A stretch of 64,000 bases of DNA from Candidatus Zhuqueibacterota bacterium (GTDB lineage: Bacteria > Zhuqueibacterota > Zhuqueibacteria > Oceanimicrobiales > Oceanimicrobiaceae), in assembly GCA_029262055.1 (NCBI GenBank), contig JAJDAD010000040.1:1-64000 (forward strand), in the 5' to 3' direction. Shown piece after piece: positions 21,640 to 31,905 of this stretch. The position numbers and the translations under genes are program-made. Each line of letters opens with the position of its first letter. The first letter of the stretch is position 1. Below the pieces are notes generated by a model. The model made no database searches. It had not been told where the DNA came from and saw only the letters and a program-made list of their open reading frames with translations.

Positions 21640-21907
21640 ATATCAGCCATCAAATATAGTAAGATAATTTGAAATGTCAACACCTTTCTTATGCAACAAC
21701 GGTGATTCCGGTAGTCCTCTTTGTGATTAAAGTCAGCATGATCACCTTCCGATAATTTCAATGGGTAAACAATTGATATCCTGGCTCATGTACCCTCGAT
21801 TCCCCTCAGTTTGCATTTAGGTATTTTGCCGCTTCAAAGGCAATTACCCGATAGTCGAGGCAGACAGACCCAAGCCTATGGAACTAATCTCATTGAGGAC
21901 TTGGCCG

Positions 21908-22372
21908 ATGCAAAACGTAATGATCGTTGACGACGAAGAAGATATTGTTGAGCTAATGTCTGAAACTTTAGACGTATGGGGCTATCGTCCAATCGTGGCT
22001 CACGACGCAGAGGAAGCGCTCGAAAAGTTCAGGGAGCAACCGGTGGATCTTGTGTTGACCGACTTAAGGCTGCCGAAAAAGAACGGCGTGCAACTGTGTG
22101 ATGAGATCAAGGGCATGGACGACTCAACAGAAGTCATTCTCTTTACCGGCTACCCGGAAATTGATTCTGCAATCGATGCTATGAAGATAGGCGCTTTCGA
22201 CTATCTGACGAAGCCGGTCGACTTGTCTGAGCTTAAGCTGAAGATCGAACGCGGACTTGAAAAGAGAAGCATCCGAAGCGCATCCAACCCGATGAAAGGT
22301 TTGGCGTGGGCCGTTCTGCTTTCCGTTCCCCTGTGGTTGGCAATGGGAGTCGTACTTACCTATCTGATGTAG
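21908..22372 (+). CDS. Response-regulator receiver domain with C-terminal transmembrane helix
   Basis: A 154-residue protein. The receiver domain (about 1-120) is complete: acidic pair DDEED, phospho-acceptor Asp in LVLTDLRLPKKNG, Thr in ILFTGYPEID and Lys in DYLTKPVDLSEL. Instead of a DNA-binding or enzymatic output domain, the last 20 or so residues form a hydrophobic helix (WAVLLSVPLWLAMGVVLTYL), preceded by a basic linker. I choose ATG 21908 because family similarity starts at MQNVMIVDDEED. A longer frame from 21878 is possible. No histidine kinase is adjacent. It converges on the rhomboid gene with four bases between the stops. It could recruit phosphorylated signalling to the membrane. 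Confidence 0.85.
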   Translation: MQNVMIVDDEEDIVELMSETLDVWGYRPIVAHDAEEALEKFREQPVDLVLTDLRLPKKNGVQLCDEIKGMDDSTEVILFTGYPEIDSAIDAMKIGAFDYLTKPVDLSELKLKIERGLEKRSIRSASNPMKGLAWAVLLSVPLWLAMGVVLTYLM

Positions 22373-22376
22373 CGGG

Positions 22377-23024
22377 TCATGAGGAGCCCCGGCGGTTCTT
22401 TGCCGGGAATACGAAGATAAGCACGGCGCCGGCCACAAAGCCCCCGACGTGCGCCCAAAAGGCAACACCACCCCCCTGCACTCCCAGCGAGCCCAGTCCG
22501 CTGAATAACTGCATCGCAAACCAGAAACCAAGTACAAAAAGTGCCGGCACCGGCCTGATTGTCAGAAACCAGATGATCGGGATCAGGACAAGCACGCGTG
22601 CCCGCGGGTACTTTACCACGTAAGCACCCAGGATGCCGGCAATGGCCCCGCTGGCTCCCACCAGCGGAATGTCCGAAACGCCTCCCAAAAGGATATGTGC
22701 CGCCAACGCGATCAGCCCGGTCAGAAGATAGAAGATCAGGTAGTTTAGATGACCAAGGTAATGTTCGATGTTGTCGCCAAAAATCCACAGATAGAGCATG
22801 TTCCCGATGATGTGCATAAAGCCACCATGCAGGAACATGGATGTGAGGAGCGTCTCCAGCTTTTCTCCGCTGAGAATCTCGACGGGTATGGCTCCGAACC
22901 GTTCGATGACCGGCTCGTAGCCAATTGTCAGCTCAAAGTAGAAGGCGATGGCATTCAGCACGATCACCACGATTGTCACGTAGGGGATGGTGGTCCTCGG
23001 GTTGTCGTCTTTTAGCGGGATCAT
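22377..23024 (-). CDS. Rhomboid family intramembrane serine protease
   Basis: A 215-residue membrane protein with six or more hydrophobic helices. The catalytic Ser lies in GASGAIAGILGAY and the catalytic His in FWAHVGGFVAGAVL. The helix-2 motif HGGFMHIIGNMLYLWIFG, with the conserved His and Asn, is also present. The length and motif spacing match bacterial rhomboids, which cleave transmembrane segments of other proteins. It starts 10 bases after the M23 peptidase gene stop, so it probably belongs to the same minus-strand operon. The substrate is unknown. Confidence 0.93.
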   Translation of the reverse strand: MIPLKDDNPRTTIPYVTIVVIVLNAIAFYFELTIGYEPVIERFGAIPVEILSGEKLETLLTSMFLHGGFMHIIGNMLYLWIFGDNIEHYLGHLNYLIFYLLTGLIALAAHILLGGVSDIPLVGASGAIAGILGAYVVKYPRARVLVLIPIIWFLTIRPVPALFVLGFWFAMQLFSGLGSLGVQGGGVAFWAHVGGFVAGAVLIFVFPAKNRRGSS

Positions 23025-23034
23025 CCGTTCTGTG

Positions 23035-25440
23035 TTAGTCTATCCAGAAGTGCGATTTCTTGACGGCGACGTTGCCTGATTTGTCGAGAGCGACAACTTC
23101 GATTTCGTGCCGGCCGGGCAGCAGGGTTTGCTCCGGCCTGTATTTGAGCTGATACCTTTCCGGGTCATACTCCGGGATAACCGGGAGTGCATCCAGACGT
23201 AGTTGCAGATCCTGCTCGCTCCTGATCCCCGACAGCTTATCTTTGATATTTACTGAGATCGTCGGTCGCCGGGATCTTATGTGACTGGCCGGCGCAGGTT
23301 GGATATTCCAGATTCCCGGCGGCGCATCGTCCCGAACCAGGGTGAAGTCCTCCAGACTCAGGACCCTGGCGGAAACGGTTTTGCGTCCCGGGTCATGGCT
23401 ATTGTCGATGAAGGCCCACTTGCCTTTGCGGGACTTGTAGTAAACGCCAAGCTTTTCAGGGTTTTGGGTGGAGTCAGGATACTGAACGAAAACCCTAGCG
23501 CCCTTTTTCATCAAAACATCTGCGGGTTCCGCTTTGTAAATATGTCCGACATGGTCGTAGCTGGTCAGGGCCGTGGTGCTATCGATGGCTATCCGCGCAT
23601 AAAGCGGTTTGTACAGTGACGCCTTGTTGAATGCGATCCGGAAGCGGCCATCAGTAGAGGTAATATTATCTGCGACACCGTTCTTTACAGTAGTCGCAGG
23701 TAGCTCCGCACTGAAGACATTCTCCGCGTCGTTCAGAGCGCGAGTCCGAACCAGCAATGGGTGCCGGTCGCCGGCTTGAAGTTGACGCAGCGGAATACGA
23801 CCGACATAACGGCCTAGGTCTGTTTGATGCAGCGCGACCGGGGCAGCGCCGCCGGTGCCCGGAGAAAGCGTGACCGCAGGCTTTGCCAGCAACATCGGCT
23901 TGAAGTCGAGGGCTAACCTGACATAGCTGTCGTAGAAGTCATAGCTGATGTCGAATTCCTGTATTACATTGGCTGCGTCATTTGCGCGCACAAAGAACGC
24001 AGGATATGATTGGGTAGAAAACTGATCGCGTCCGAGAAATTTCAAAATGACCGAGCTGGCGCCGGCTTGTCCGGAGGGCAAAATCACCCTCGTCTGTCGC
24101 TGGCTTTCCGCCAGGGGCTGAGCACCGCCTTTTTCCAACAGCGCGAGTGTGTCGGCATCCAACCGCAGATTTAGCTTTTGCCATTTGCTCCGGTTCAGAG
24201 CGAAAGCGTCCAGATCTTGGACCTGAGTGAGGTCATAGGTGATGAGATCATCTAACAGGAGTTCACCGCTGTCACCCTGGATCAGAACAGGGTGCAGGTC
24301 GAAAGCCGCCCCCACCTGAAGCTGGCCGCGCACCATACTGGTGTTGCCCCAGAAGTCCGCTAACTCGATTCTGAAAGAGTGCCTTCCCGGGAAAAGGGCG
24401 CCGGAGACTACCCGCGGACTCACGCCCGCACTACGCTGTTCAGCATCAATCAGCAGCTCCGGAACGGCGTTCAAAGAGGTGCTGGACAGGACACCCGCCC
24501 AGGTCTTATTCGGCTTATAGTAGGTCTTGAGGTTGAATCGGTCTTTATACAGTTTATAGAAACGTCCGAGGCCCCGGCGTGCCAGGCGGTAGTCGCGCTC
24601 CAGCTCGGACATTGAATTTGTCTGAAAACTCAACCGGTCATAACTGTACTCAAACCTGAGAACATCGTCGACGAAGAGCTTGAGCTGGTAGACGCCGAAC
24701 CGGTTGGGGGCACCCGCACTCTTGTCATGTGCACGAACCGCGATGCCGACGTTGCCCCAGACCGATACCGGGTTCTTGATCTCATATTGTCCTGCTGCAA
24801 CCCACTGTACCTCTTCAATCACCGGTCTGAAGTCCTGGTTCACCTCAGACTTTTCATCGAGCGGGGTGAAACTCACCGCCCGGACAATCGGGCTTACCCG
24901 GTCGGGCAGTTCATAGCCTTTCAGCAGCGGGTTGGTCGGGTTGTTTGACTTGTCGCGAAGCTCAAAGTGCAGGTGCGGTGCGCCAATGCCGGTCTGACCG
25001 GTGTAGGCGATGACGTCGCCCTGGGCCACGGGTAAGACGTCAGGTTTTAGAAACAGGTTGACACGGTAGCGGTGAGCCCGGCGCTGCTCGTTCGTGACAA
25101 GTTTTTGAATCCGGTCGGGGAATCTCGACAGGTGGGCGTAAACGGCTGTTTCACCGGTGTCGAGTTTGAGGTAAAGCGCCTTACCGTAGCCGTACGGGGA
25201 GACCGAAATCCGCCAAACATAACCGGAACGCACAGCGAAACATTTGAAGCCGATGCGGCCTTGCGTCTTCACATCAATGCCGGTGTGGTAGCGCGCGGGC
25301 CGGTATTCCCCAAAGGTCGAGGTCAGATACTCGCCGGCGTTGGTGGGCCAGAGGTAGCCGTCCGAAGGCGCACGCTCCTGCGCGTAAGTTTGGCTGCAGC
25401 AGACCAGAGGGAAGAGAAGGCAAACAATCTTAAGCATCAT
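23035..25440 (-). CDS. Large exported M23 (LytM-type) metallopeptidase
   Basis: A protein of about 801 residues. The start ATG at 25440 (or 25437) is preferred to the longer frame because it begins directly with a signal peptide (MMLKIVCLLFPLVCCSQTYA) and overlaps the end of the preceding gene by a few bases. The M23 domain (about 30-190) keeps the zinc ligands: RYHTGIDVKT (HxxxD), and HLHFELRD (HxH). Its role is probably cleavage of peptidoglycan cross-links, or amidase activation. The remaining 600 residues are beta-rich with no catalytic motif I recognise, including segments resembling Ig-like folds near the end (GRHEIEVVALDKSGN). The family is usually much shorter, so the long tail is notable. 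Confidence 0.88.
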   Translation of the reverse strand: MMLKIVCLLFPLVCCSQTYAQERAPSDGYLWPTNAGEYLTSTFGEYRPARYHTGIDVKTQGRIGFKCFAVRSGYVWRISVSPYGYGKALYLKLDTGETAVYAHLSRFPDRIQKLVTNEQRRAHRYRVNLFLKPDVLPVAQGDVIAYTGQTGIGAPHLHFELRDKSNNPTNPLLKGYELPDRVSPIVRAVSFTPLDEKSEVNQDFRPVIEEVQWVAAGQYEIKNPVSVWGNVGIAVRAHDKSAGAPNRFGVYQLKLFVDDVLRFEYSYDRLSFQTNSMSELERDYRLARRGLGRFYKLYKDRFNLKTYYKPNKTWAGVLSSTSLNAVPELLIDAEQRSAGVSPRVVSGALFPGRHSFRIELADFWGNTSMVRGQLQVGAAFDLHPVLIQGDSGELLLDDLITYDLTQVQDLDAFALNRSKWQKLNLRLDADTLALLEKGGAQPLAESQRQTRVILPSGQAGASSVILKFLGRDQFSTQSYPAFFVRANDAANVIQEFDISYDFYDSYVRLALDFKPMLLAKPAVTLSPGTGGAAPVALHQTDLGRYVGRIPLRQLQAGDRHPLLVRTRALNDAENVFSAELPATTVKNGVADNITSTDGRFRIAFNKASLYKPLYARIAIDSTTALTSYDHVGHIYKAEPADVLMKKGARVFVQYPDSTQNPEKLGVYYKSRKGKWAFIDNSHDPGRKTVSARVLSLEDFTLVRDDAPPGIWNIQPAPASHIRSRRPTISVNIKDKLSGIRSEQDLQLRLDALPVIPEYDPERYQLKYRPEQTLLPGRHEIEVVALDKSGNVAVKKSHFWID

Positions 25441-26170
25441 TGGGTGTGACCATAATATTCTTGAGCAAGTCCGGCTTATCGGTAATGATCGCGTAAACAC
25501 CGAGGTTCAGAAATTTCCTCATTTGTGCTGCCTCGTTTACAGTCCAGACCAGGCAGTCGTAGTTTCGGTCCGAAATCTTGCGTGCCAGTGTTTTTGTGAG
25601 TAGGCTATGTTCAAGGTGGATCGCCTGTGCGCCCGCAACCCGGGTAAAAAGCAGTTCGCCATTGCGAACGCTGATATTCTTGTCCACAAGAAACCCGCTA
25701 CGGGCAGCCTTGTCCACTTTGCGAACTCGACGAACGATCAAAGGACTGAATGACGAAATGATCGTCTCCCGGAGCAGACCGAAGTCTTTGAGAATGCCCA
25801 CGACTTTTTCTTCTATTGCGTGTCCCGCCGGCAGGCCATTTGCCTTGATTTCCACATTGACGCTTGCCCGGCCCTTTATGGTTTCCAGCACTTCTGCCAG
25901 AGTGGGGATCAGTTGACCGGAATCCTGGCCACCGATCGCGTATTTTTTCAGGTCAGACAAACTCATGTTTTTGACCAGGCCCGTGCCTGCGGTCAAGCGG
26001 TCGATTCTGTGATCATGAAACACAACCACTTCGCCCGACTGGCAAGTCCTGACATCCAACTCAATCCCGTCGACACCCAGGTCGAGGGCGGCTTCAAACG
26101 CGGCAAGTGTGTTCTCGATGGCGTTTGCGGTGAAGCCTCTGTGGGCGTAGTTCAACGTACGATTATTCAT
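25430..26170 (-). CDS. Glycerophosphodiester phosphodiesterase
   Basis: A 246-residue GDPD-family enzyme that hydrolyses glycerophosphodiesters to glycerol 3-phosphate and an alcohol. The family motifs are all here: AHRGFTANAIENTLAAF, with catalytic His and the Glu-Asn pair, then GVDGIELDVR with metal-binding Glu and Asp, then FHDHRIDRLT. The C-terminal barrel segment LVWTVNEAAQMRKFLNLGV is typical of the family. There is no signal peptide, so it is cytoplasmic. Its stop overlaps the M23 gene start, and it lies 101 bases after the glycosyltransferase gene. Confidence 0.95.
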   Translation of the reverse strand: MNNRTLNYAHRGFTANAIENTLAAFEAALDLGVDGIELDVRTCQSGEVVVFHDHRIDRLTAGTGLVKNMSLSDLKKYAIGGQDSGQLIPTLAEVLETIKGRASVNVEIKANGLPAGHAIEEKVVGILKDFGLLRETIISSFSPLIVRRVRKVDKAARSGFLVDKNISVRNGELLFTRVAGAQAIHLEHSLLTKTLARKISDRNYDCLVWTVNEAAQMRKFLNLGVYAIITDKPDLLKNIMVTPNDA

Positions 26171-26271
26171 TTGCTAACCTTCGCTACGAGCATAGCTCAT
26201 TTTGAAAATAGAAAAAAATCAACGAATTACAACTCTAAAACCGGCGGCTACCCAGCCTCTCGTGCGTGATT

Positions 26272-27561
26272 TCAAGGATTGTCCGAACCAGAATCCAGGA
26301 GCTCCGCCAGTTTTCCGGTCAAGTGTCTGCGCTCGAACTTGTCGATCCCCTGCCCGCGTTCGGTGTCTTTCTGACCTTTCTTCCAGTTCTGCCAGGAGCT
26401 GCTGATTGCTCCGGCGATGCCGTTTTCATCGTCATGGGAGAAACAGTGGGCGGAACCGTTTTGTTCGAGAAGCGTGACGCCTTCAACCCGCGGACCGATT
26501 GCCAGGACGGGTTTGGCGCTGGCCAGATATTCGAAGGTCTTACCCGGGACAAAATCCCGGCTGGCGTGCTCAGCCACGGGGTAGAGCAGCAAGTCGGCTG
26601 CGCACATTTTTGCCACTGCCTGATGGTGGCTGACATAACCCGTGAAGGTCACCACCCGCTGGAGGCCGAGGCCGGAGACAAGGTCGTGCACGCCGCCATC
26701 CAGTACAGCGCCGGCAAATTCTACCAGAATGTCGTCCTGGACGGACTCGTTCTTGTCGAGAAAATTCCTTAGCGCCCGCAGGAAACCGGCGATCGGCGCC
26801 ATCCCACTCAGGGTACCCGCAAACACAATTCTAAGACACTTGCGCTCTTCCTGATCTTCATTCGCCTGCTTGAAATCCTGCGAGTCAAAGCCGTTGTAGA
26901 TAGTATGAAAGTCAGAAGCTCGGGAAGGAAATCCTGCCTGCAGCTTTTGGGTCAAACCGGCGGAAACCGCCACGACTTCGTCAGCTGTGCTGAGGACCAG
27001 TTTTTGCATGGCTTTGTTTGCCCAACGGTGCAATGGTGTCGGCTCATATTGAAAATTGCCATCGGCCCAGCCGTCCCTGAAATCCGCGACCCATCTTGTG
27101 CCCGTGAGTTTTTTCAGGAAGAATCCGAGCAAGTGGGCCGAATGCGGTGGAGAAGTCGTCAACACGCACGCGATGTTTTCACTTTTCAGGACCCGCAGGG
27201 CTCGCACGAGGGCGAACGGCAGCCAGAGCAGCTTGGTGTCCGGAACGAACAGACCATTGAGTAACCGGTTGAGCTCGCTGCCGCCGGCGTGCCGCGGTCC
27301 GGTGGCGCGGGGTTTCTTGCGGGCCGAGTACCACAGATGAAGCAGGCGCTGGGGGTCGAGAGACGCCGTTCTGTGGGTGGTTGCGCCTGCCACGTCATTT
27401 GCCAGGGTCGTGTCGTGCGCGTAGTACGCGACGTCCCGCACCGTCACAACATGCGGCCGCCAACCGAAATCAGGCAGGTACTTGACGAACTTGGCTGCTC
27501 GTTGCGTACCTCCCATGCCCATGGGCGGAAAGTAGTATGCGACTACCAGTACGTTTTTCAA
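26272..27561 (-). CDS. Family 4-type glycosyltransferase
   Basis: A 429-residue GT-B fold glycosyltransferase. The N terminus reads VAYYFPPMGMGGTQRAAKFVKYLPDFGW, in two adjacent parts, which is the glycine-rich acceptor loop of GT4-like enzymes. The C-terminal half has IVFAGTLSGMAP and the donor-site segment PGKTFEYLASAKPVLAIGP, including the Glu-x7-Glu-like region. It overlaps the C5-epimerase-like gene by four bases (ATGA). Context suggests a step in assembling the uronic-acid-containing polymer made by this locus. The sugar specificity is unknown. Confidence 0.88.
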   Translation of the reverse strand: MKNVLVVAYYFPPMGMGGTQRAAKFVKYLPDFGWRPHVVTVRDVAYYAHDTTLANDVAGATTHRTASLDPQRLLHLWYSARKKPRATGPRHAGGSELNRLLNGLFVPDTKLLWLPFALVRALRVLKSENIACVLTTSPPHSAHLLGFFLKKLTGTRWVADFRDGWADGNFQYEPTPLHRWANKAMQKLVLSTADEVVAVSAGLTQKLQAGFPSRASDFHTIYNGFDSQDFKQANEDQEERKCLRIVFAGTLSGMAPIAGFLRALRNFLDKNESVQDDILVEFAGAVLDGGVHDLVSGLGLQRVVTFTGYVSHHQAVAKMCAADLLLYPVAEHASRDFVPGKTFEYLASAKPVLAIGPRVEGVTLLEQNGSAHCFSHDDENGIAGAISSSWQNWKKGQKDTERGQGIDKFERRHLTGKLAELLDSGSDNP

Positions 27562-28442
27562 AGGCTTAAACGTATTTTTTCAATTGTCTTGCCACCCAGC
27601 CAGCGCAGCCGGCAGAGCGGATTTTGCAGATACGACCGCCATTTCCTGCTGACATCCAGAAAGTACCCCTCTCCGGTAATTCTGCTCAGTATTTCAAGGA
27701 GCTGCACATGGACGTTGATATACATTGGGGAGGCAAGTCGGCGACTCGGGTGCAGGTCGTACAGATTCCAGTAGCCGGTATCGTACAGATTTAGATTGCG
27801 CTTAAGCCCGGCAATAGCGACGTCAAACAGGTCCTGCGCGCTTTTGTCCTGCCAGAATTTAGCGTAGTCGAAAATCCCCAGCAACCCAAAAATGTGTCCA
27901 TTCAAAACCCGCGAAGGCAGTTCGGTGGGGAATTCCTCAAAGAGCAACGAACCGTCCGGAAACCCGTCCACCACGCCTCCGGAGCTGACAGGATGCAGAA
28001 AAGATTCGAACGCCTTGCGGGTAATCTGTTCGAGCTGCTGGAGTGGCTCCACCTGATGCACGCGCAGGAGAAGCGAGATTCCCTGCGCCTGTGCCATGCC
28101 CGATATCCAGGGCGCTTTGGGTCCATAAAAGTGCAGGTCGAAGTCGTAAACCCACGCGCCCACCGGACTGTTTTCCCGCCACTCTTCCCGAAAGTTTGAC
28201 TGAAGCCAACCGGCACAGATCCGGGCTTGCTCAAATGCCGTATCAGAAGAGGAGCGGGAGTGCTGGAGATTGAAAAGACCGTATTGGCTGATGGTAATTG
28301 GATTATAGACCATTCCCGTGCTTTTGCCCATATCAACCAGCGGCAAGCCGTCCCGGTCACGAGGGTAGGAGAAGTTCTCCAGTCCCTCCCAGCGGAACGG
28401 GTAGGCGCTCAGCCTTCCGTGTGTTTCAGTTTTCTTCACCAC
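27558..28442 (-). CDS. D-glucuronyl C5-epimerase-like protein
   Basis: About 294 residues from GTG 28442 (GTG 28439 is an alternative). The frame is open farther upstream, but that part overlaps the GT39 gene and reads as non-protein sequence. The sequence resembles the C-terminal domain of glucuronyl C5-epimerase: NPITISQYGLFNLQ, WLQSNFRE, WISGMAQAQGISLLLR, NGHIFGLLGIFDYAKFW, YWNLYDLHP, and INVHVQLLEILSRITGEGYF. The family turns glucuronate into iduronate in a polymer such as heparosan. There is no signal peptide, and it is shorter than animal enzymes. It sits between GT39 and GT4 genes, overlapping both. The family call is good; the exact reaction is inference. Confidence 0.8.
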   Translation of the reverse strand: MVKKTETHGRLSAYPFRWEGLENFSYPRDRDGLPLVDMGKSTGMVYNPITISQYGLFNLQHSRSSSDTAFEQARICAGWLQSNFREEWRENSPVGAWVYDFDLHFYGPKAPWISGMAQAQGISLLLRVHQVEPLQQLEQITRKAFESFLHPVSSGGVVDGFPDGSLLFEEFPTELPSRVLNGHIFGLLGIFDYAKFWQDKSAQDLFDVAIAGLKRNLNLYDTGYWNLYDLHPSRRLASPMYINVHVQLLEILSRITGEGYFLDVSRKWRSYLQNPLCRLRWLGGKTIEKIRLSL

Positions 28443-30159
28443 CGGCCGCCTTGGATTTGTAAATACTGATTTTGGGACCGAGATTCCAGGCGCCGGGCGA
28501 GAACTCCTGCAAAAGCTGCAACCTGTCTCCGTGCAGCACACTTTCGTAAAAGGCGCGGCCATTGCTGTAGCTGTACCAGAGCGGACTGCTTTTGTCCGGG
28601 AGCTGCCCTTCGAAGTAACGCCGGTAGTTGTCGCTGGAAGCGATGAGGTAAGGCACTTCGCTCTGCGCAACCGATGACAGGCGCGGCAACCGTGACTCCA
28701 GAAGTTGTTTTAAGTACAGGTTGCTGTTCTCTGCCCGCATCCGGTCGAGCGCTTTCAGGCGAAAGTCCTTACGCAGATTTACCAGACGGTACGATGGCCG
28801 CCTGAGACTTTCCGCCAGCAGTTCCTCCTTCATTGCCGTGGGCAGCAGGTTGCTCTCCTCCGTGTTTTTGGTAAACCTGGAGGGATCGAACAGGTTGGGG
28901 CCGTAGACATAGTTTTCATATGCGATTAAACTGCCTGTTTTTAGGTTGTTCTCAATCCAGTTTTTTGCGGCGGTGCGGGAATCTTCCCGGGTCAGGCGAA
29001 AGTCCTGCCAACCGATCTTGAGGAACACCGGCAAGAAGAACAACAGGATTGCGACTTTTTGCACGATTGGGTTTTGTACCCGCAAAAGAACTTTGTGCAA
29101 AAACAGGCCGCCCAAAACCGCCAGCGCCGGATAGATTGGGGTGAGGTAGTGGATGCCGGACCGGTTCCAGAAACCCAGGTACAGCAGGGTCGGAACGATG
29201 AACGCCAGCAGCAGCACTGATTTTCTGTCTCGACCGAACAGCGCAAAAAAGACGCCTGAAACTAAAAGAAGCCCCACGGTCCAGTCATTGAACACCAGCT
29301 CCCACAGCGGCCAAACGCCGGGCAAGGCAGCGATGTGACCTACCATTCCGGAACTGACATGGCCGAGCGTATATTTGAGATCAGCCCAATACGAGGCGAA
29401 GGACAAGAGCCAGTACGGCGATCCGGCAAAAAAGCCGCACGCCACGGCCACCAGGTTGAGACAAACCGACCGTAGAATCGCAGTGGGTCTCATTGCGCTA
29501 AAGCAGCTCGTCAGGATCAGTGGCAAAATGAGAAAGCCTGCATTGTATTTGGTGGAAATGGCCAGGCCGGCCAAAATTCCAGCCATTGCTCCGGCTTGCC
29601 AGGAAGGCTGGTCATGAAAGCGCAGAATCTGGAAAAGGGCCCAACTACACAGCAGCGCCAGCAGCGCCTCCGGCAAAATCCAGTGTGAAAGATCCGTGTG
29701 CGCATAGCTAAACGTCAGCAGCGCCGCGGCGCAATACCCGGTCTGCCGGGAGAAGAACCTACGGCCAATCACAAACACAAGCCACACGGTGGCCACACCG
29801 ACCACCGCGCTCAGAAATCTCCCGGTCAGATAGAAGCCGCTGGCATCGATGAAATAGGTCGACCCAAAATCGATCGGTCCTGAAAAATTGCCCGCCAGCA
29901 ATCCTGCCCCGTAGTACAAGCCGTAGACTCCCAGAAGCACATAGGAGTAGAGCGCCGGGTAGACATGGTAGGTCGGCTCCAGACTTTGCTTGGCGCCGTA
30001 AGCGAGGGCATTAACCACGTTGAAGGGCTCGTCCGAATTATATACCGACGGCAGCCCGTACCAGATGCCACATACTCGTAAAACACAGGCGCTTACCAGG
30101 ATTACCAAAAGAAGTCTGTCCCGGGTCAGACTTGCCGTGAGTTGTTTTATCTTATCCAC
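28426..30159 (-). CDS. GT39-family (PMT/ArnT-like) membrane glycosyltransferase
   Basis: A 577-residue integral membrane protein with about eleven hydrophobic segments in the first 370 residues and a soluble C-terminal part. The first periplasmic loop carries the acidic pair YNSDEPFNVVNAL, as expected for the catalytic Asp-Glu of lipid-phosphate-sugar-dependent (GT-C) transferases. YTHTDLSHW-like sequence (SYAHTDLSHWILPEAL) matches the second conserved loop. It would transfer a sugar from a polyprenyl-phosphate donor on the periplasmic face. It overlaps the flippase gene by eight bases and the epimerase-like gene by about 17, inside one operon. Confidence 0.88.
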   Translation of the reverse strand: MDKIKQLTASLTRDRLLLVILVSACVLRVCGIWYGLPSVYNSDEPFNVVNALAYGAKQSLEPTYHVYPALYSYVLLGVYGLYYGAGLLAGNFSGPIDFGSTYFIDASGFYLTGRFLSAVVGVATVWLVFVIGRRFFSRQTGYCAAALLTFSYAHTDLSHWILPEALLALLCSWALFQILRFHDQPSWQAGAMAGILAGLAISTKYNAGFLILPLILTSCFSAMRPTAILRSVCLNLVAVACGFFAGSPYWLLSFASYWADLKYTLGHVSSGMVGHIAALPGVWPLWELVFNDWTVGLLLVSGVFFALFGRDRKSVLLLAFIVPTLLYLGFWNRSGIHYLTPIYPALAVLGGLFLHKVLLRVQNPIVQKVAILLFFLPVFLKIGWQDFRLTREDSRTAAKNWIENNLKTGSLIAYENYVYGPNLFDPSRFTKNTEESNLLPTAMKEELLAESLRRPSYRLVNLRKDFRLKALDRMRAENSNLYLKQLLESRLPRLSSVAQSEVPYLIASSDNYRRYFEGQLPDKSSPLWYSYSNGRAFYESVLHGDRLQLLQEFSPGAWNLGPKISIYKSKAAGGEEN

Positions 30160-31618
30160 GTTTGAGTCTTAGGGTTGTCCGCAGGAAGTCAAGCTCCTTG
30201 CGGTCGAAGAATCCACTCAACAGCATGAGGCCGGGCGTTGCCACAATCAAGAGCAGGCGCGCCGGGACCTGCCATTCACCGGTGTAGTTGTACCCAAGCG
30301 CGAAAACAGCCAGAATAATTCCCGCAAGCTTGAGTAAGCGGCCAAACTCGTAATTGACCGGATAGAATCTTTTCGAAAAAAAGTAAAGCAGAACACACAT
30401 TAGCAGATGCCCGGTGACGCGTGCCCAGGCTGCTCCCATGATTCCTATTTTGGGAATCAGCAGCAGGTTGACACCTATGTTTGCGAGCGTTCCGACTATC
30501 GTGATAAATGGTAAGTACCTGGTCTTCTCTTTTAAATAGATGCCTACCATGAAATTCACGTACATGCCGTAGAAGACATAAGAAAGCAGAATCAAGGGAA
30601 CCACCCGGACTCCGGCTAGGAATTCCTGTCCGATCAGCGTGGCGCCAAACAAGCGTATTTGCGCGATGTCGCCAATGAAAAACGACAATACGAGAAACGC
30701 CAGTGAAGCAAGCGTGGTGAAGTAGGTCAGGACCTTTGCAAATACCTCTTTCGCGTTATCCTGTTTGGACGTTGAAAGAAAGAACGGGTGCCAGGCAAAC
30801 CTGAAAGCGGTGACCAGCAGCGCCATGAACATTCCCAGTTTGGCGCCTGCGCTGTAGATGCCGGTTGCTTCCAGGCCGGCCAGGCGTTCCATGATCGGCC
30901 GGTCGATCAGGTCGAGCAAAACCACGGAGAGCGTCGCGGGCAGGAATGGCAGGCCGAACTTGGCCAGGGCGCGAAAATGCTCCGGATTGAATTGCAGGGA
31001 AACCTGTCGAACCAGAATGAATGAGAGCAGCAGCAAGGTCAGGCCCGAAGCGTAAACATTGGCCAGCAAGATGCCCTCGACGCCCTTGCGAAGAAAAATG
31101 ATGAAATAGATATTCAGTGCGACGTTGGCGATGACATTGATGAACTTGAGAATAGTGTACTGTACTGACCGTTCTTCCGCGCGCAGGTAAAGGAAGGGCA
31201 AGAAGGCGAGGGCATCGAACAGAAGAATGAATCCGGTCAACCGTACCAGGTGACCGTAACTACCTTCGCTGATGAGATAGCCGGAAATGGTTTCGGCGTG
31301 GTTGTAGATCAAGAAAGTAAGCGCGAGCGCTACCACAGAGATAGCCCAAAACGCCGTACTGAAAACCTGGCGCCTCTGTTGCCGATCATCGCTGAGAATG
31401 AAGTAACGCAGGAACGCGGCATCGATGCCATACGTGTAAATGATCGTCATCACGGCCAGAAAAGCGTATACGACCTGTTGCGCGCCGAATTCCGACGCCG
31501 GGAGCTTGTTGGTGTAAAGCGGCAGGAGCAAGAAGTTGACCACGCGCGTCAAAATGTGGCCAATTCCGTAAACCGCCGAGTGTTTGGTTAAACGCTTGAG
31601 GCTTGCCAGCAGGGACAT
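30152..31618 (-). CDS. Oligosaccharide flippase (Wzx/MATE-like polysaccharide exporter)
   Basis: A 488-residue protein with 12-14 hydrophobic helices, starting at ATG 31618 (MSLLASLKRLTKHSAVYGIG). The first helix reads GHILTRVVNFLLLPLYTNKL, matching the N-terminal segment of polysaccharide_synt/RfbX-type flippases. Further marks are FGAQQVVYAFLAVM and YGIDAAFLRYF. Such proteins move lipid-linked glycans across the inner membrane. It is the first gene of the minus-strand polysaccharide cluster. The divergent unknown pair starts 288 bases away. Confidence 0.9.
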   Translation of the reverse strand: MSLLASLKRLTKHSAVYGIGHILTRVVNFLLLPLYTNKLPASEFGAQQVVYAFLAVMTIIYTYGIDAAFLRYFILSDDRQQRRQVFSTAFWAISVVALALTFLIYNHAETISGYLISEGSYGHLVRLTGFILLFDALAFLPFLYLRAEERSVQYTILKFINVIANVALNIYFIIFLRKGVEGILLANVYASGLTLLLLSFILVRQVSLQFNPEHFRALAKFGLPFLPATLSVVLLDLIDRPIMERLAGLEATGIYSAGAKLGMFMALLVTAFRFAWHPFFLSTSKQDNAKEVFAKVLTYFTTLASLAFLVLSFFIGDIAQIRLFGATLIGQEFLAGVRVVPLILLSYVFYGMYVNFMVGIYLKEKTRYLPFITIVGTLANIGVNLLLIPKIGIMGAAWARVTGHLLMCVLLYFFSKRFYPVNYEFGRLLKLAGIILAVFALGYNYTGEWQVPARLLLIVATPGLMLLSGFFDRKELDFLRTTLRLKRG

Positions 31619-31905
31619 GAAATCCTTTATTGGATTGCGCGCACACAGCAATGGTGAAAAAATCCCACCAATATAGAAAACCGGCCTCGAAAAAGCAAGT
31701 TGATTGTCTTGTTTGCAAGCAGCTTATTTTTAAGCATTTAACGCGATTTGCAGGTAAGGATTGAGAAAGGACCGCCGGTTTTTGACGATAATAATAATGC
31801 AGCGGTGTGATGATCTTCAGTTTTTTTGGCATGGATGCGTGGCGCACTTTGTTTAAGTAAGAGAAACCAGCATGTCCGATAGCGACCATGAAAAGGCGGT
31901 GATTG

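Follow-up and report, generated by a model that had tools for sequence, protein, structure and literature searches.

A receiver gene that ends in a hydrophobic helix

The window, i.e. the whole stretch of 64,000 nucleotides that was analysed, harbours on its forward strand a gene (21908-22372) for a protein of 154 amino acids. The ORF starts with an ATG at 21908, its coding part extends to 22369 (final codon 22367-22369) and the stop codon lies at 22370-22372. There is an alternative in-frame ATG at 21878, yet the homologues align from 21908. The protein is composed of an NtrC-type receiver, a hydrophobic C-terminal helix of 25 residues and nothing thereafter, a layout that we call REC-TM. The receiver (residues 3-116; 21914-22255) contains the acidic pair D8 D9 (21929-21934), the phospho-acceptor D52 (22061-22063), T80 (22145-22147) and K102 (22211-22213). 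It is followed by the junction between helix 5 and the tail (residues 117-128; 22256-22291), which in the family alignments is variable in sequence and constant in length, and by the predicted membrane helix (residues 129-153; 22292-22366) with P141 (22328-22330), W143 (22334-22336) and G147.

The REC-TM gene is divergent from a tRNA-Met gene and convergent with a rhomboid protease gene (22377-23024, minus strand; PF01694 and synteny). Further genes on the minus strand (23035-31651) were assigned by a Pfam scan to an M23 peptidase, a GDPD protein, a glycosyltransferase, a C5-epimerase, a PMT-type transferase and a Polysacc_synt protein. The ORFs of the C5-epimerase (27558-28670) and the PMT-type transferase (28426-30159) overlap by 245 bases, so that one of the two starts is probably misplaced. 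The first-pass annotation had supposed that the receiver might act near a sensor, but no histidine kinase was present among the scanned neighbouring genes in the window.

The genome of the window (5.7 Mb) gave 110 receiver-like matches. As a control, 20 other stretches of this genome, hand-chosen around mostly short receiver ORFs, were inspected. A readable receiver was obtained from 19 of them (20 ORFs), and none carried a hydrophobic C-terminal tail; in one stretch (L230) a hydrophobic segment was found, but at the N terminus.

The receiver is intact and of the NtrC type

The receiver matched PF00072 at residues 4-113 (E 8.8e-29). In 37 aligned REC-TM members there is no variation at D9, D52, T80 and K102 and hardly any at D8, which confirms the intact receiver described in the first-pass annotation. 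The acidic pair, the phospho-acceptor Asp, the Thr/Ser and the Lys that characterise the receivers of response regulators are thus all present. The closest NCBIfam types are AtoC and NtrC, with scores far under their cut-offs, and the nearest solved chain is that of NtrC1. However, the sigma-54 AAA+ domain and the HTH that would be sought behind such a receiver are absent, as the ORF stops at residue 154 and all matches are confined to the receiver. The earlier statement that the protein has no output domain is therefore true in the usual sense; below, the helix itself is argued to be the output. Neither is REC-TM a receiver alone, like the single-domain response regulators, because a conserved helix of 25 residues follows helix 5.

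A distinctive feature of the receiver is residue 24. W24 (21977-21979) is invariant in 37 of 37 members from the phylum of the window (KSB1). It is not itself kept outside KSB1, where 21 of the 23 intact members from Desulfobacterota have L or M at this position. In a joint alignment, a large hydrophobic residue occupies this position in 51/53 REC-TM members compared to 3/76 other receivers, the largest gain in hydrophobicity among 115 receiver positions. In the AlphaFold2 model, residue 24 directly follows helix 1 (residues 11-23). In the receiver fold, helices 1 and 5 have their ends on one side, and the active site is on the opposite side. Since residue 24 ends helix 1, it should face the membrane surface, and it is predicted to make contact there. 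Judged from these alignments, the receiver of REC-TM is adapted too.

Conservation of the tail exceeds that of the receiver

The best 19-residue stretch of the tail has a mean Kyte-Doolittle hydropathy of 2.23 in the window protein and of 1.95-2.64 across the 37 members, and its hydrophobic moment is low (0.09-0.30). The high hydropathy and low moment indicate a membrane-spanning rather than an amphipathic helix, and the single hydrophobic C-terminal helix proposed previously is kept across two phyla. Hydropathy and C-terminal position fit those of tail-anchored proteins, with insertion and topology being predicted. Taken together with conservation and the structure models, localisation of REC-TM to the membrane is well supported as a prediction.

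Within KSB1, the mean identity was 66% for the tail, 45% for the receiver and 23% for the linker (284 pairs among 37 sequences with receivers less than 50% identical), and the tail was more similar than the receiver in 282 of these 284 pairs. Between the two phyla the corresponding values were 58% for the tail and 38% for the receiver, with the tail higher in 680/690 pairs. When in this latter comparison the register of the tail was shifted by 1 to 8 positions, its identity was only 8-21%, so hydrophobic composition alone cannot explain the similarity. P141 and W143 are invariant in 55/55 sequences, two degenerate receivers included, and G147 and S139 are kept in at least 90% of them. The tail motif reads [KR]GLxxALxxS[IV]PxWLxxG.

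The alignment of the 55 sequences is free of gaps between residues 6 and 150, and the K102-P141 spacing was a constant 39 residues among the 23 intact ORFs measured from Desulfobacterota. The window protein shares this spacing as well as the receiver and the S-x-P-x-W tail with G147. In NtrC-type regulators encoded near the KSB1 gene, the distance from the Lys to the Walker motif was 66 residues in 7 of 7 measured cases from three families (an eighth could not be measured). A constant linker therefore fits a rigid link, yet it is not peculiar to REC-TM.

In the 11 pairs compared, non-synonymous changes per site in the tail were fewer than synonymous ones. The copy of the window is unusual in that its tail changes faster than its receiver when compared to that of locus L100 (pN 0.34 vs 0.14), and it lacks N133, which all other members (36/37) have. 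In permutation tests for helical periodicity in the conservation, 426 of 10000 permutations reached the observed value with 37 sequences and 3274 of 10000 did so with 55; a conserved helical face, weak in the smaller set, was thus unsupported in the larger one.

AlphaFold2 models calculated with 37 and then 55 sequences had a mean pLDDT of 79 and 85.5, respectively. According to DSSP, both contain one continuous helix from residue 106 to 153. The mean pLDDT was 90-95 in the last two blocks of the tail (141-154) of both models and dipped at the junction (121-130) to 58 and 66. Foldseek and VIA-align yielded receiver matches that span residues 1 to about 129, such as 3jte (Z 23.9, rmsd 1.0, 124 aligned) and NtrX 5m7p (Z 22.6, rmsd 1.3, 128 aligned), so that the tail is barely tested by these comparisons.

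REC-TM occurs in two phyla

Full-length homologues with 65-69% identity were found in three assemblies named as candidate division KSB1. As the first-pass annotation had proposed, homologues with a receiver and a terminal helix were searched for more widely. A profile built from the tail alone detected REC-TM in 41/82 genomes of KSB1, and in 33 of the 49 high-quality ones. A single match was found in 40 of the 41 positive genomes, the exception being the genome of the window, which has a second, degenerate copy. In a tree of 37 members the families f1, f2, f3, f5, f6, f10 and f15 were monophyletic, while f7 and f16 were not; as most families cohere, mainly vertical descent fits these data.

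The KSB1-only tail profile (A4) also matched 2/247 genomes in the phylum of Desulforhabdus sp. TSK, which we take to be Desulfobacterota. After the profile had been widened with these two non-KSB1 members (A7), it matched 25/389 and 2/17 genomes in two Desulfobacterota classes, with two tail matches in 5 of the 25 positive genomes of the larger class. All extracted proteins share the REC-TM layout, bar one fragment at a contig end. Three other phyla, represented by 296, 199 and 132 genomes, gave no match with profile A4. Little weight should be given to this absence, because the same profile found 2/247 genomes where A7 found 25/389 in one class.

Five of the 34 genomes behind the named loci matched profile A4 at E <=0.01. 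Two of these matches were weak (E 0.003), and three had coordinates identical to those of genomes in the KSB1 set. The latter are assemblies L069 (BMS3Bbin03), L071 (Deferribacteres) and L040 (Bacteroidota), whose REC-TM matches coincide with those of G061, G063 and G065 from the phylum of the window, suggesting that the phylum given in some record titles may be wrong. Similarly, the receiver match of a MAG labelled Bifidobacterium breve (L057) resembles those of Acidobacteria contigs in range and strength, and this label is perhaps doubtful.

The same layout and tail recur in dozens of genomes and the tail is under purifying selection; a misread frame, a frameshift or a chance ORF end is thereby rejected. 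None of the objections raised in the first-pass annotation, namely an amphipathic helix, a misread frame or a frameshift that conceals a longer protein, withstood testing. A named family that combines a receiver with a C-terminal membrane helix was found neither in Pfam and NCBIfam nor in the open-licence literature searched, which included excerpts of PMC5847659 and PMC1183210. This is in agreement with the earlier remark that no common family has this layout. REC-TM is a real family without an existing name, whose members are probably tail-anchored response regulators.

Gene neighbourhoods of REC-TM in KSB1

A rhomboid gene lies near REC-TM in one f6 locus and in each of the five f1 loci whose flanking sequence was long enough, with a different relative orientation in the f1 locus L011. 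Cleavage of the tail helix by the rhomboid was considered on account of the adjacency in these six loci. It was rejected, because known bacterial rhomboid substrates have an orientation other than that expected of the REC-TM helix. In some KSB1 loci a receiver-kinase hybrid is encoded upstream of REC-TM (verified with Pfam in L143 and L146), accompanied in L143 by an NtrC-type regulator. A polysaccharide-synthesis gene was not found immediately upstream in the KSB1 loci examined.

Neighbouring genes in KSB1 were clustered, and the identity of a cluster was taken from a scan of one representative. The greedy picking of ORFs in this survey selected an antisense ORF over REC-TM in L130, L135, L136 and L138. 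Within the fetched stretch of 24 loci, NUDIX and glucose-6-phosphate isomerase genes were each present in nine, CstA in seven and the cluster c7 in six. The product of c7 is a small basic protein with a C-terminal FGWxWKK motif and no Pfam match (L195, 8242-8631; alignment A5), and in several loci its gene is directly downstream of REC-TM. It is present in 39/82 KSB1 genomes. Co-occurrence, by which the first-pass annotation had hoped to identify partners, did not single it out: 23 genomes contain both genes, 18 only REC-TM, 16 only c7 and 25 neither (Fisher p 0.18, 82 genomes). In the genome of the window c7 is unlinked to REC-TM and precedes TPM, nucleotidyltransferase and LemA genes; c7 was therefore dropped as a partner. 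CstA, glucose-6-phosphate isomerase and NUDIX are not claimed as partners either, since an ORF of the size of CstA also follows c7 in L199, a genome without REC-TM, as judged from ORF order and length.

Polysaccharide genes and degenerate copies

For Desulfobacterota, the survey covered one locus per genome in 22 of the 27 positive genomes. A polysaccharide-synthesis gene is located upstream on the same strand in 8/22 loci, a raw count. An EPS_sugtrans gene (TIGR03025) precedes REC-TM by 15 bp in L273 and 13 bp in L284, with one ORF between them in L280 and two in L274. In L286 a gene for a Polysacc_synt_2 protein with CoA_binding_3 overlaps REC-TM by 4 bp, and in L268 a gene of the same type lies 12 bp from a degenerate copy that precedes REC-TM. 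L234 has a Polysacc_synt_2 fragment 43 bp ahead of its degenerate copy, and L233 a Bac_transf gene 169 bp upstream. The remaining 14 loci have varied neighbours, e.g. a class II tRNA synthetase with MgtE, or ATP sulfurylase. HAMP-domain proteins are also encoded in L286 (3317-4547), L234 (9542-10255) and L268 (4773-5369). No kinase or chemoreceptor domain was matched in them, two of the four HAMP matches are just under the Pfam cut-off and their membrane segments were judged by eye.

The degenerate copies in L234 (7214-7696) and L268 (7372-7875) stand just before the intact gene and are similar in the two genomes. Their receivers have E-K in place of the acidic pair, D52 replaced by C, T80 by C and K102 by R, and they retain P141, W143, G147 and the spacing. 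The degenerate copy in the genome of the window is located at C45 (L090, 3466-4080; region 8489-8581 of C45, minus strand). It has no Pfam match but a recognisable SIPLWL tail, and its neighbour is an OmpR-type regulator, on the far side of which a HAMP histidine kinase is encoded. That degenerate receivers keep the helix suggests that the tail helix has a job of its own.

The tail helix as a possible output

As the helix outconserves the receiver in two distant bacterial groups, we suggest that it is a working output rather than a mere anchor. The conservation of the tail, the gap-free alignment with invariant P141 and W143 and the hydrophobic position 24 all argue at the sequence level against a passive anchor. 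Our preferred proposal, to which we give an even chance, is that REC-TM is a response regulator of the tail-anchored kind. Its membrane helix would dock on a partner in the membrane and would itself be the output. The receiver would lie in the cytoplasm with its active site away from the membrane, helix 5 is predicted to continue as the inserted membrane helix, and residue 24 (W, L or M) at the end of helix 1 would rest at the membrane surface. D52 would be phosphorylated by a histidine kinase that is probably encoded elsewhere. A change at the helix-5 face of the receiver might then travel along the helix, upon which the membrane helix would change its packing against one particular partner that is itself integral to the membrane. 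For some Desulfobacterota, a plausible partner is a membrane-bound enzyme that takes part in polysaccharide synthesis.

A more specific version of this proposal is possible but doubtful. Here, the helix, by virtue of its sequence, would read out phosphorylation within the lipid bilayer and switch an enzyme embedded in the membrane, for instance, among those that make exopolysaccharide, a polyprenyl glycosylphosphotransferase or a membrane sugar dehydratase. The regulator would sometimes be paired with a degenerate, non-phosphorylatable sister receiver. Response regulators are known to exert their effects by binding DNA, as enzymes or through contacts with soluble proteins. A conserved family in which a membrane helix is the only candidate output would add a way for two-component signalling to reach membrane enzymes post-translationally. 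If readout in the bilayer is true, these enzymes would be controlled directly, without transcription or a second messenger.

It seems rather unlikely to us that the helix merely tethers a plain single-domain receiver, which would serve at the membrane as a sink for phosphate or a local competitor for a sensor kinase. The intact active site, the lack of a further domain and the receiver-kinase hybrids upstream in L143 and L146, in the former with an NtrC-type regulator, agree with such a tether, but the tail outconserves the receiver, its P and W are invariant, and two loci contain tandem pairs in which a degenerate receiver with the same tail accompanies an intact one. Of the membrane role put forward in the first-pass annotation, the localisation is upheld as a prediction by hydropathy, conservation and the models. 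The passive phosphate sink, on the other hand, is unsupported, because of the same tail conservation and because the degenerate receivers in two Desulfobacterota loci keep the tail and should not accept phosphate.

These tandem copies in L234 and L268, the second tail match seen in 5 of the 25 positive genomes in one Desulfobacterota class, the degenerate copy at C45 and a long helix 5 as in DctD could also reflect a helix that dimerises in the membrane, either with a second copy of itself or with that of a degenerate sister receiver, the output being a soluble protein recruited to the dimer. With a single match in 40 of the 41 KSB1 genomes that have the gene, we regard such an oligomeriser as improbable. 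Finally, the receiver is closest to those of AtoC and NtrC, as would be the case for a truncated NtrC-type gene or a sequence artefact with an accidental hydrophobic end. This has next to no probability, as conservation already refutes it: layout, tail and purifying selection are common to two phyla.

Comparison with known systems

The receivers of NtrC1 (1zy2, 1ny5), NtrX (5m7p) and DctD (1qkk) are among the best matches to REC-TM in sequence and fold. In NtrC1, NtrX and DctD helix 5 reaches beyond the domain and the linker leads to an AAA+ domain, whereas in REC-TM it is predicted to lead into the membrane, without an AAA+ or DNA-binding domain. According to its title, structure 1qkk holds the receiver and the linker region of DctD. 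Single-domain regulators of the Spo0F/CheY type, of which Spo0F was among the sequence matches, resemble REC-TM in having one receiver and no classical output. They end at helix 5, in contrast to REC-TM with its conserved membrane helix.

Bacterial tail-anchored proteins have a soluble N-terminal domain, and the very end of the chain forms their one hydrophobic helix; REC-TM has the same domain order and helix position. A tail-anchored bacterial protein with a receiver domain was not found in the open-licence literature searched. In an excerpt of PMC5847659, archaeal response regulators with MetOD3, a region of about 180 residues, are called membrane-anchored; the arrangement MetOD3-REC-MetOD2 has four members in Methanoregula. 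As far as described in that excerpt, a receiver is joined there to a membrane-anchoring region as in REC-TM, but the layout differs.
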